Source: a virus
Strand: one strand, 5' to 3'
IMG/VR virus record: IMGVR_UViG_3300008113_000350
Span: 1 to 24,830 of that record
Length of the DNA stretch: 24,830 nt
The notes below the pieces were generated by a model that saw nothing but the letters and a program-made list of their open reading frames with translations, was not told the DNA's origin and searched no databases. This document shows, piece after piece, positions 2,250 through 24,830 of this stretch (positions are counted from its first letter, which is position 1; the number at the start of each line of letters is the position of its first letter). The position numbers and the translations under genes are program-made.

Positions 2250-3398
2250 TCAAACCTTGAACCACGAGAGATATTGAGCAACTTTTTTAGTAACACTAGC
2301 CCAATCTCCACGACGGGGTTGCCTAAACAGTCGCACAGTTGAATACCAGGGACTCGAATCCCGATCAGTTAGCCAACGCCAGTCTGTGGCATAAGCATTC
2401 AGCATGATCCAGGTAGGTCTGCCCATGGCACCGGCCAAATGACTCACAGCAGTGTCCACACCCACAACCACATCCAGGTGCTGCATCAGGGCAGCAGTGT
2501 CAGCAAAACTGTGAACACTACCGGGATATCGTGTCACACCCAACTGGTCCAACTCAGCTTCTTGTTCGGGACTAGCATCTACTTGTAGGTTAATCCACTC
2601 GTAGTCGGGACATGCTCGAATCAATTCCAGCATCGCATCAAACGGCACAGCCTTGTGTTGATTTAGCCAAGAGTCTGGACGACCACTCCACCCAAATCCC
2701 ACCCGCATGCGAGTTTTTGGACCCAGTCGTTGGTGCCAAGCTCGCACACGTTCAGGGTCAGCGTTTAGATAACTTTGCACTCGAGGCAAGGTATCCAGTG
2801 TGATGCCCAGGATACCTGGCAAGCTCATGATGGGAACCCAGTAGTCAAACTCTCCCATGTCCGCACCGTAACCGGCCACTTGCGATATGATACCGCCTAT
2901 GCTCAGTAACGGAATCAAGCCGTCTGTGACCTGCAGTTTGATCTGAGCACCACGTTGATGCAGATTCCACAAAAATCTCACAAACTGGATGTTGTCCCCG
3001 TGCCCTTGCTCACCCACTACCAAGATAGTTTTACCATTTATGTCCTCACCTGACCAGCGAGGTTGTGCAAATTTAGGCTCAGTTCCAGCCAAGTGTTCGT
3101 AGTTCCAACGTGCTTCGTAAGCAGGCCAACCACGAGCATAGTCGCCCATCAGCAAGTATGCTATGGCCAGGTTAAAATGTGCGGTAATATTTCGTGGATC
3201 CAACACAGCCGCATGCTGCAAAAACGGCACTGCCCGCCCTGGGTGTCCCAGTTCTCGCATGACATTGCCGTAGTTGTTGAATGCTGCAGCATTGTCTGGA
3301 TCTGCCACAAATGCCTGTGCATAGCAGGCCAAGGCCTGTTCAGGTTCTTGCTGGGCTCTGAGTTGGTTGCCTTGCTCTATTAGGTCGTTGGAATTCAT
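2250..3398 (-). CDS. TPR-repeat glycosyltransferase (GT9/heptosyltransferase-like)
   Basis: The protein has 382 residues from the ATG at 3398. The frame extends about 20 codons further upstream, but only to a TTG. Residues 1-110 hold tetratricopeptide-type repeats (QALACYAQAFVADPDNAAAF, then a FNLAIAYL segment). The rest resembles the C-terminal catalytic domain of TPR-linked GT9-like glycosyltransferases: VGEQGHGDNIQFVRFL, a GWSGRP motif, and DVVVGVDTAVSHLAGAMG followed by PTWIML and DWRWL. Such enzymes transfer a sugar from a nucleotide donor; acceptor and sugar are unknown. It is the only minus-strand gene in the left part, set between plus-strand fibre genes. Possible roles are fibre or capsid glycosylation or host surface change. 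No Shine-Dalgarno sequence is evident. Confidence 0.88.
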   Translation of the reverse strand: MNSNDLIEQGNQLRAQQEPEQALACYAQAFVADPDNAAAFNNYGNVMRELGHPGRAVPFLQHAAVLDPRNITAHFNLAIAYLLMGDYARGWPAYEARWNYEHLAGTEPKFAQPRWSGEDINGKTILVVGEQGHGDNIQFVRFLWNLHQRGAQIKLQVTDGLIPLLSIGGIISQVAGYGADMGEFDYWVPIMSLPGILGITLDTLPRVQSYLNADPERVRAWHQRLGPKTRMRVGFGWSGRPDSWLNQHKAVPFDAMLELIRACPDYEWINLQVDASPEQEAELDQLGVTRYPGSVHSFADTAALMQHLDVVVGVDTAVSHLAGAMGRPTWIMLNAYATDWRWLTDRDSSPWYSTVRLFRQPRRGDWASVTKKVAQYLSWFKV

Positions 3399-3438
3399 CA
3401 CATATTTACTGGTGCGTTCACACGATATCCAGATTTCT

Positions 3439-3447
3439 GCTAAATAC
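3439..3447 (+). promoter_or_regulatory. Late promoter, GCTAAATAC
   Basis: The octamer GCTAAATA plus C is identical to the minus-strand site at 22939-22947 and, over eight bases, to the site at 24733. It lies 90 bases upstream of the 3538 gene. The leader holds short stem-loops, for example CGGG/CCCG at 3496-3510, before a strong ribosome-binding site. It overlaps no coding sequence if the glycosyltransferase starts at 3398. Confidence 0.7.
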
Positions 3448-3537
3448 TGGGTCCGCAATACGGCGGCTTATGCTGAGCTTAACACCCACAGCGTACGGGC
3501 TAGAACCCCGATCGGACTTCTTTAAGGAGAAAACAAA

Positions 3538-4239
3538 ATGGGTCGTCCTCTAAAAATTAAAAAATCTACCACCGGTGATATCGGTTTCAACGCAATTGAC
3601 ACACTGACCAATCCGGTCTATCCCTCAGATCCAACTACATTTGGTGGCACAGAGTATCTGGGCGTGGTGGGCGGCGCCAACGCCAGCGTGGCTACCACAG
3701 CTTATCCAGTGGTCAAGTGCCGTGCTTTCATCACCGGTACAGGTGCCGAAGATGATGCCTACATCATCACACAAAAAGGTTCTACCAAATATCAGGTGGC
3801 CACTGTGACTGCAGTCAACGACGAAAGCATGGTTGTGGGCCAGGCCTATCGTATTCTCACAGTGGGCGACACCAACTGGGCAGCAGTGGGCGGCAGCGTA
3901 AGTGCTGCTGTGGGTGATGTATTTACTGCCACTGGCGCAGGTGCAGGCACAGGCACAGTGCAAGACGTGGGCACATGCGTGTTGGCCAACGAAGCTGACA
4001 GCTCATTAACCGAAGGCAACATGAACATCACATTCAGCACAGGTGACAGCACTGCGCAGTTGATCAGCCGACTCACCAACCGTTTTGCTTTGGACTACAG
4101 TGATCCGCCAGTGCGTTACGCCGTGAACTTCTTCAGTGACGAAGGTTACGAAGTCAAATCGGGCACCACAGGTGCAGTCAACGCCAGCGGTCAACAAAAC
4201 CGTGTGGATTTGGCCATCGTAGAAAACTACACTTCTTGA
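3538..4239 (+). CDS. Phage virion structural protein
   Basis: The protein has 233 residues. The start is well defined: AAGGAG at 3524-3529 lies eight bases before the ATG, the best ribosome-binding site in the window. Residues about 100-142 form a module (GQAYRILTVGDTNWAAVGG, then VGDVFTATGAGAGTGTV) that recurs inside many unrelated phage structural proteins. The C-terminal part (NRFALDYSDPPVRYAVNFFS) is beta-rich and resembles virion proteins of T4-like aquatic phages. The exact position in the particle cannot be told. It has its own late promoter and terminator, so it is probably made in quantity as a one-gene late unit. Confidence 0.7.
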   Translation: MGRPLKIKKSTTGDIGFNAIDTLTNPVYPSDPTTFGGTEYLGVVGGANASVATTAYPVVKCRAFITGTGAEDDAYIITQKGSTKYQVATVTAVNDESMVVGQAYRILTVGDTNWAAVGGSVSAAVGDVFTATGAGAGTGTVQDVGTCVLANEADSSLTEGNMNITFSTGDSTAQLISRLTNRFALDYSDPPVRYAVNFFSDEGYEVKSGTTGAVNASGQQNRVDLAIVENYTS

Positions 4240-4254
4240 TTTTATCAAGTTCTG

Positions 4255-4288
4255 AATCCTCTCAGCTACATACTGGGAGGATTTTTTT
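4255..4288 (+). terminator. Terminator whose 3' arm is the next gene's ribosome-binding site
   Basis: An 11-bp stem pairs 4255-4265 with 4273-4283, with one G-U pair and a 7-base loop, followed by five further T up to the ATG at 4289. The 3' arm contains GGGAGG (4275-4280), placed eight bases before that ATG. The structure can therefore end the upstream transcript and hide the Shine-Dalgarno sequence of the next gene. Confidence 0.85.
4265..4273 (+). promoter_or_regulatory. Late promoter candidate in hairpin loop, GCTACATAC
   Basis: GCTACATACTGGG (4265-4277) matches GCTAAATACTGGG (3439-3451) at 12 of 13 positions. The motif occupies the loop of the terminator hairpin. Initiation about six bases after the octamer would fall near 4278, giving an RNA with AGGA nine or so bases from the ATG and no 5' arm. 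Confidence 0.5.
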
Positions 4289-4876
4289 ATGACCGTAGCA
4301 TTTGTACTGGGAAATGGGCAAAGCCGTGACGCTTTGGATTTAACACAGTTGATCAAACTGGCGCCTGTGTATGGCTGCAACGCCCTGTTTAGAGAGTTTG
4401 AGCCATCTGTGCTGGTCAGCACAGATGCACCCATCAGCCGGGCCATACAAGAATCAGGCTACAGCAAAAAAAACGTGCACTACACCAGAAAACCCCTGCC
4501 AGACCTGGGTGCTCAACGTATACCACAACAGTATTATGGATTCAGTTCAGGACCTGCAGCAGTGGGCATTGCTGCTGTGGATCGCTGCAGAAAGATATAC
4601 CTGATAGGATTTGATCTAGGCCCGACTCGCACAGGGCACTTCAACAACATCTACGCAGACTCAGAATTCTACAAAAAATCATCGGCCACCCCCACTTTTA
4701 CCGGCAACTGGGTGCGTCAATTGGTCACTGTTGCCCGAGATTTCCCACAAGCACAATTTGTACGAGTTAAAGGATCGACCACAGCTGATATCCCAGAACT
4801 GGTCAATCTACCAAACTTTGCTCACATGGACATGGTAGACTTTATTGACCGCATAAATAACACAAAGGATCTCTAA
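4289..4876 (+). CDS. GNGxSR Rossmann-like protein (sialyltransferase/MptE-like fold, uncertain)
   Basis: The protein has 195 residues, with GGGAGG eight bases before the ATG. It begins with a beta strand and glycine turn, VAFVLGNGQSRD, followed by VYGCNALF. This pair of motifs recalls the nucleotide-binding start of Cst-I-type (GT42) sialyltransferases and of DUF115/MptE-like proteins, which open with GNGPS followed by a CN motif. Later features are a SSGPAAVGIAAV helix start, IYLIGFDLG and a TGNW segment. Small proteins of this type occur in aquatic phages. A sugar-nucleotide or pterin-related transferase activity is possible but unproven, because no catalytic set can be checked here. Its last codons contain the CATAAATA motif serving the following fibre gene, and its stop codon abuts that gene's ATG. 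Confidence 0.6.
   Translation: MTVAFVLGNGQSRDALDLTQLIKLAPVYGCNALFREFEPSVLVSTDAPISRAIQESGYSKKNVHYTRKPLPDLGAQRIPQQYYGFSSGPAAVGIAAVDRCRKIYLIGFDLGPTRTGHFNNIYADSEFYKKSSATPTFTGNWVRQLVTVARDFPQAQFVRVKGSTTADIPELVNLPNFAHMDMVDFIDRINNTKDL
4852..4859 (+). promoter_or_regulatory. Late promoter candidate, CATAAATA
   Basis: The octamer lies inside the last codons of the 4289 gene, 17 bases before the ATG at 4877. Predicted initiation near 4865 leaves a short leader with AAGGA as ribosome-binding site. Confidence 0.55.
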
Positions 4877-6373: not shown

Positions 6374-6392
6374 TTTGTATTCCGGTTCTTTT

Positions 6393-6401
6393 GGTAAATA
6401 C
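6393..6401 (+). promoter_or_regulatory. Late promoter candidate, GGTAAATAC
   Basis: It lies in the 49-base gap before the giant fibre gene and keeps the TAAATAC core of the other late sites. Initiation near 6406 would give a leader that starts with GAGGA, 12 bases from the ATG. Confidence 0.5.
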
Positions 6402-6422
6402 ACCAGAGGACCATGAATACCT

Positions 6423-22938: not shown

Positions 22939-22947
22939 GTATTTAGC
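22939..22947 (-). promoter_or_regulatory. Late promoter of the neck operon, GCTAAATAC
   Basis: Read on the minus strand, GCTAAATAC is identical to the plus-strand site at 3439-3447. Only six bases separate it from the ATG at 22932, so the predicted transcript has a leader of about two bases. Confidence 0.7.
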
Positions 22948-24732: not shown

Positions 24733-24740
24733 GCTAAATA
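24733..24740 (+). promoter_or_regulatory. Late promoter, GCTAAATA
   Basis: The octamer is identical to those at 3439 and 22940-22947 (minus strand). It lies three bases after the upstream stop codon. Initiation near 24746 would fall inside the 5' arm of the hairpin that covers the next start codon. Confidence 0.7.
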
Positions 24741-24760
24741 TAGGGAACGGAGTTCCCTAT
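24740..24760 (+). promoter_or_regulatory. Hairpin sequestering the start codon and ribosome-binding site of the next gene
   Basis: ATAGGGAAC (24740-24748) pairs perfectly with GTTCCCTAT (24752-24760) around the 3-base loop GGA. The stem includes the A and T of the ATG at 24759, and the GGAG (24749-24752) that would be the Shine-Dalgarno sequence lies in the loop and first pair. No T-run follows, so it is not a terminator. Confidence 0.8.
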
Positions 24761-24830
24761 GAGCGAAAATACATTACCCCAACTCAAGCAAAACTTAATT
24801 GAATATGTCAAGCTTCAGTTGGGTGATCAG
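24759..24830 (+). CDS. Start of a late gene, possibly structural (3' end outside window)
   Basis: Only 24 residues are visible, beginning MSENTLPQLKQNLIEYVKLQ and continuing LGDQ. The ATG is supported by GGAG six bases upstream and by the late promoter and hairpin directly before it. The pattern of a short polar start followed by an EYVKLQLG helix recalls N-termini of neck or other virion proteins in T4-like phages, but this is too short for a firm call. The promoter class suggests late expression, in contrast to the probably early genes just upstream. Confidence 0.6.
   Translation, partial: MSENTLPQLKQNLIEYVKLQLGDQ

Follow-up and report, generated by a model that had tools for sequence, protein, structure and literature searches.

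How does one phage gene end and its neighbour begin when the two share almost no intervening DNA? This question is raised by the junction of genes 3538 and 4289 in an IMG/VR fragment of 24.8 kb (24,830 nucleotides, referred to here as the window) that carries major-capsid, tail-sheath and virion genes of the T4-like type. Near matches to its DNA among cultured phages are confined to XbC2 and Kaldavass, both jumbo phages, and to short pieces of capsid sequence. A hairpin element of 35 bases occupies positions 4254-4288, lying 15 bases past the stop codon of gene 3538 and abutting the ATG of gene 4289. The features of the locus are as follows.

3439-3447, plus strand: late promoter GCTAAATAC of gene 3538, predicted +1 at 3452
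3451-3540, plus strand: freshwater-2 RNA (Rfam RF02980) in the 5' leader of gene 3538, 64.7 bits against a gathering score of 49.9
3538-4239, plus strand: upstream gene 3538, 233 amino acids, no known family, 27 relatives in IMG/VR
4254-4265, plus strand: 5' arm of the hairpin (fold and covariation)
4266-4272, plus strand: hairpin loop CTACATA of 7 nt, in which TACATA (4267-4272) is a variant late-promoter hexamer, followed by C4273
4273-4284, plus strand: 3' arm of the hairpin (fold and covariation)
4275-4280, plus strand: Shine-Dalgarno sequence GGGAGG of gene 4289, within the 3' arm (sequence; paired in 87 of 89 relatives)
4278, plus strand: predicted +1 of the loop promoter under T4 spacing, giving the leader AGGATTTTTTT and then the ATG
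4282-4288, plus strand: run of seven T's, putative terminator U-tract and spacer to the ATG at 4289 (sequence; TTTTT in 82 of 89 relatives)
4289-4876, plus strand: downstream gene 4289, 195 amino acids, MptE-like/glycan-type family (phrog_30607, 2e-31; phrog_4603, 3e-4)

The hairpin between genes 3538 and 4289

The RNA of 4254-4288 folds into a 12-bp stem of -15.9 kcal/mol (z about -5.4 to -6), and none of 200 shuffles folded equally well. An 11-bp stem starting at 4255 had been described in the initial annotation; these 11 pairs, including one U-G wobble (4262-4276), were recovered and a twelfth, G4254-T4284, was added by the fold. Of the plus-strand terminator-like sites in the window's first half, it and one other have the longest stems. 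GGGAGG in the 3' arm and the T-run as spacer to the ATG at 4289 were both found where they had been reported. In phage intrinsic (rho-independent) terminators, a stop codon is followed by a GC-rich stem and then by a run of T's, and 4254-4288 has this arrangement; it differs from such terminators in that its 3' arm and T-run double as the region where translation of the next gene starts and in that its loop sequence is conserved. No Rfam covariance model matched the element, the sole Rfam match in the window being freshwater-2 at 3451-3540.

The loop contains CTACATAC, one base away from the phage late promoter TAAATA. The proposal that the loop bears a promoter octamer one base off GCTAAATAC held for the single mismatch and required correction for the position, as the nonamer comprises the loop together with its closing G-C pair. 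The reported agreement at 12 of 13 bases between GCTACATACTGGG (4265-4277) and GCTAAATACTGGG (3439-3451) was reproduced, and beyond these two sites the record has no match to GCTAMATACTGGG. The T4 spacing rule, which puts the hexamer at -11 to -6, predicts a start at 4278, beyond the 5' arm, as had been suggested. The window alone contains six matches to GCTAAATAC with one mismatch or fewer as compared to 4.1 expected. Octamers of this kind are not above chance in the window, so the promoter claim needed a test in relatives, and the significance of the loop octamer derives from these relatives and not from window statistics.

For gene 3538, the start predicted from its own promoter (3452) nearly coincides with the beginning of the freshwater-2 RNA (3451), providing an independent check on the spacing rule. 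An [AC]TAAATA-type site is present at the equivalent place 5' of gene 3538 in relatives, and the freshwater-2 leader is kept in relatives L003-L028. Freshwater-2 at 3451-3540 would be a structured RNA in the late transcripts of T4-like jumbo phages. Family searches with the 3538 protein and the 4877 protein found no family for either, and the 4289 protein matched PF01973 with an E of 0.003, which is under the family cut-off. Elsewhere in the window, a strong bidirectional terminator with a UUCG loop lies 3' of the major capsid gene (610-637). An open reading frame with TPR repeats and a match to glycosyltransferase family 9 occupies the minus strand at 2250-3458, amid late genes of the opposite strand and near gene 4289, whose own match is weakly MptE/sialyltransferase-like.

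Conservation of the stem and variation of the loop

Relatives of genes 3538 and 4289 were gathered by protein. At loci carrying relatives of both genes, the hairpin was located between the two. Covariation was examined for 46 distinct sequences in one register: 97.2% of cells were paired as compared to 87.5% in shuffles, 46 cells had changed on both sides as compared to 13 in shuffles, and the covariation score was 0.386 for the true structure, 0.196 for shuffled sequences and at most 0.131 for slid structures. A protein-profile scan, which is unbiased as to DNA, was combined with the earlier protein-based loci to give 89 distinct upstream regions. A hairpin pairing the GG-rich ribosome-binding site was observed in 87 of these regions and a strict T-run (i.e. 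TTTTT) in 82. Of the exceptions, two were start codons misassigned by the script, one had an additional short reading frame separating the hairpin from the gene, three read TTTTCT or TTTCTT and one (L037) had no T-run. The proposed sequestration of the Shine-Dalgarno sequence is thereby favoured, both by the near-constant pairing of this arm and by the compensatory changes.

The T-run was further assessed in the best large relative, the 349-kb record of L007. Of its 105 starts with a ribosome site, only 2 had TTTTT within the 8 bases preceding the ATG; one of these was the hairpin element under study, indicating that the T-run is not an ordinary spacer. This scarcity at other starts favours a terminator role for 4254-4288; together with the strong stem, it lends comparative support to the termination suggested in the initial annotation.

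Four loci (L008, L036, L089 and L445) contain a 16-codon reading frame (MTFNSNWGPECLWHLF) between the hairpin/T-run and the real 4289-type start, which is possibly a recent insertion or a leader peptide. Pelagiphage HTVC008M encodes a distant relative of gene 4289, and no case of the hairpin element from this phage passed the scan.

Loop hexamers were tabulated for 115 family members (TACATA 52, TAAGTA 18, TAAATA 15, TAACTA 13, TAATTA 11 and TATATA 6) and for the protein-based set (TACATA 47, TAAGTA 16, TAACTA 7, TAATTA 6, TAAATA 5 and TATATA 4; one apparent TAGTTA, in L437, was an overlapping TACATA). In the latter set, 81 of 86 loops were non-TAAATA and the hexamer was directly followed by C in 80 of 86. 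Every state is either TAAATA or a single change from it at one of the two central positions, the nine possible double departures being absent. At least 26 changes among hexamer states were placed on the gene tree, a count that is approximate because the tree was built quickly and has many weak branches. In tree simulations with the two positions independent and rates matching the observed numbers of changes, the probability of obtaining no double departure was at most 0.01. The motif sequence was kept whilst its register against the stem shifted and the loop size varied from about 4 to 14 nt. A DNA-binding site that has to reach some minimum score would be expected to behave in this way; such constancy in a shifting register would be less expected if the loop were bound as RNA in one fixed structure. 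A loop held within one base of TAAATA over this number of changes, and reaching TAAATA itself in several clades of the gene family, argues for the promoter role that had been put forward. The related question of whether the A-to-C change is tolerated by the late sigma factor receives an evolutionary answer, TACATA being the commonest state in the family.

TAAATA had at first seemed to be absent from the loops, which a second scan and the protein-profile scan refuted, the first search pattern having forced A or C before the hexamer. All members with TAAATA loops (e.g. L205, L228 and L232) have T or G before the hexamer, and in nearly every variant loop this base is C or A; the positions possibly compensate for one another. 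A stricter formulation, in which T or G at the first base with a central AA amounts to exactly one mismatch, was weakened by the use of G or T at this position in ordinary late promoters.

Late promoter class and recurrence before other genes

In the 349-kb relative, NTAAATA[CT] and a sigma-70-type sequence, TGCTATAAT, showed the strongest 8-mer enrichment in front of genes. The TAAATA class (i.e. NTAAATA[CT]) occurred 64 times in sense and 20 times in antisense orientation as compared to 4.25 expected. This motif agrees with the late promoter of the T4 family. In T4, TATAAATA is perfect in 32 of 50 sites, with a single deviation in most of the others, and an AT-rich melting region downstream is usual (PMC2988020); the late promoter is CTAAATA in Aeh1 (PMC1524935) and ATAAATA in the jumbo phage CBB (PMC5259590). 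A gp55-like protein was detected with an E of about 1e-12 in three related records (those of L007, L010 and L016), the window itself being a fragment of 24.8 kb only. Hexamers with a single change showed no such enrichment in front of the genes of this 349-kb relative (TACATA 11 sense, 7 antisense); the argument for promoter activity of TACATA is consequently one of evolutionary constraint.

Recurrence of the arrangement was assessed by scanning for TAAATAC followed within 3-12 bases by GGA, then TTTTTT and ATG, with no requirement for a stem. CATAAAT was unfit as a control, being a substring of CATAAATAC, and the strand-reversed motif was used instead. At least 120 stretches were found with TAAATAC as compared to 21 with the reversed motif, a ratio of at least six; these counts are lower bounds and not frequencies. 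In 48-49 of the 88 distinct TAAATAC sites listed, a hairpin pairs the ribosome site with an arm 5' of or at the motif, and many of the sites without a motif-spanning hairpin have a small separate one. Among the matches listed, the genes behind the hairpin sites fall into about ten protein families that are unrelated to one another; one encodes a neck protein (recognised via cultured relatives) and another a protein resembling the baseplate hub gp5. The promoter hexamer also occurs in unstructured upstream DNA, for example at 22939-22947 on the minus strand of the window. Two further hairpins of the window resemble the element at 4254-4288.

6384-6412, plus strand: second promoter-in-loop hairpin, with GGTAAATAC in the loop and GAGG in the 3' arm, before gene 6423 (fold z about -3)
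24733-24761, plus strand: third case, with GCTAAATAT beside a hairpin TATAGGGAAC/GTTCCCTATG that covers the ATG (fold z about -4.8; predicted +1 at 24746)

A 14-bp version of the 6384-6412 hairpin was found in a relative. Three further loci (L084, L098 and L125) have a hairpin ACTCCTGTAGTA..TACTACAGGAGT with a T-run and TAAGTAC or a similar sequence in the loop; the gene that follows, starting MIIGVTGLIGSGKDTIADYL, looks like a nucleotide kinase.

Proposed function, alternatives and known systems

The element at 4254-4288 is likely to combine an intrinsic terminator, a lock on the ribosome site and a sub-consensus late promoter. The computed support consists of the hairpin, its covariation, its geometry, the constraint on the motif and the presence of a late sigma factor. 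Termination, initiation, a translational block and weakness of the promoter are activities that we infer for the element. Polymerase leaving gene 3538 would mostly terminate at the GC-rich hairpin and U7. Any read-through RNA would fold the same hairpin, hiding the Shine-Dalgarno sequence of gene 4289 and making translation poor. The DNA of the loop would serve as a late promoter for a gp55-type holoenzyme, probably a weak one. RNA begun near 4278 would be without the 5' arm and unable to fold into the hairpin, and it is therefore proposed to be translated. Gene 4289 would in this manner be insulated from a strongly expressed gene 3538 and have its own low or moderate late expression, making 4254-4288 a compact boundary element within the late operon of a T4-like phage. 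Some observations count against combining the three functions: TACATA in the window is not consensus, and the single-change variants lack enrichment in the 349-kb relative; the sequence downstream of it (CTGGGAGG) is GC-rich, unlike the usually AT-rich region of T4 late promoters; the predicted leader from 4278 is just 11 nt, with the Shine-Dalgarno sequence trimmed to AGGA; and gene 3538 is itself apparently late. The one-base departure and the GC-rich stretch suggest that the loop promoter is weak, and low expression of gene 4289 could have been selected, as judged from the avoidance of TAAATA in 81 of 86 loops.

The stem, T-run and paired arm would equally be accounted for by a terminator alone, its 3' arm doubling as Shine-Dalgarno sequence and gene 4289 owing its expression to leaky read-through and to the opening of the hairpin by ribosomes. 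This simpler account fits the large excess of non-consensus loops and the lack of enrichment of the variants elsewhere. We nevertheless regard it as unlikely, since an unconstrained loop should have drifted further than one base from TAAATA in the course of at least 26 changes, the C after the hexamer would be unexplained and exact consensus promoters occupy the equivalent place before other late genes. A conserved loop in a covarying stem is also reminiscent of operators to which proteins bind, for example the gene 43 hairpin, so the loop, as UAnnUAC, might be an RNA signal on read-through mRNA for a phage or host protein (i.e. a translational repressor or a nuclease site). The shifting register and variable loop size speak against such a signal, as does the identity of its consensus with a phage promoter hexamer that is also found in the unstructured DNA at 22939-22947, and we consider it improbable, more so than a terminator alone.

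Recurrence before about ten unrelated gene families would also be expected of a recombination or shuffling cassette maintained by spread between genes. The composite early-promoter-terminator cassettes of T4-like phages known as PeSLs (Arbiol 2010 and Comeau 2014, as cited in PMC4503421) have been linked to gene shuffling. PeSLs resemble 4254-4288 in combining a promoter and a terminator stem-loop in one intergenic element and differ in having early promoters, whereas 4254-4288 has a late-type motif inside the loop and a ribosome-binding site in the stem. No sigma-70-type promoter, as found in PeSLs, is listed at 4254-4288. Moreover, stem sequences vary from family to family instead of being copies of a single cassette, and in the 4289 family the element constantly lies between the same two genes where the locus has both. 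A shuffling cassette is thus very improbable.

The combined terminator, lock and promoter is closest in logic to systems in which a locked ribosome site is bypassed by a second transcript, as established for T4 genes e, soc, 49, I-TevI and segB and for Aeh1 mobE (PMC3014915, PMC2988022). As in the leaders of the T4 gene e/I-TevI type, the ribosome-binding site at 4254-4288 lies in a hairpin; by prediction it would be locked on long transcripts, and late RNAs would lack the 5' arm. Unlike in those leaders, the putative promoter is in the loop and the putative terminator U-tract doubles as spacer to the ATG. Gene 3538 is itself apparently late, having a late-type promoter at 3439, so the temporal switch of T4 gene e is not directly applicable; the element is likely to serve for insulation and not for early/late switching. 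In the part of the literature covered, no description was found of a late promoter in a terminator loop whose 3' arm is the ribosome site of the next gene. If the combined reading is true, about 35 bp encode the end of a gene, the next promoter and a lock making the next gene readable from its own promoter only; the T4 gene e/I-TevI principle would be extended from early/late timing to the insulation of neighbouring late genes and would recur, in uncultured T4-like phages, before several families of late genes. More tentatively, a gene boundary of ~35 nt built from an overlapping terminator, lock and nested late promoter may be standard in many environmental T4-like phages, with the nested promoter in the 4289 family selected exactly one step off consensus for low expression behind a strongly expressed gene. 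The loops of this family would then provide a natural series of single-base promoter variants in a fixed context for the study of gp55-type specificity.

Looser versions of the element were found in the cultured jumbo phages PA5oct, Atu_ph07 and XbC2. In Pseudomonas phage PA5oct, an 8-bp stem surrounds ATAAATAC before gene 135020. The neck gene of Xanthomonas phage XbC2 (113592) is preceded by a hairpin (113550-113592; about 13550-13592 in L383) with a 13-bp stem, ACCCCTAAATATG..CATGTTTAGGGGT, whose 5' arm contains CTAAATAT and whose 3' arm contains the ribosome site AGGGG, and this hairpin is a possible laboratory model.
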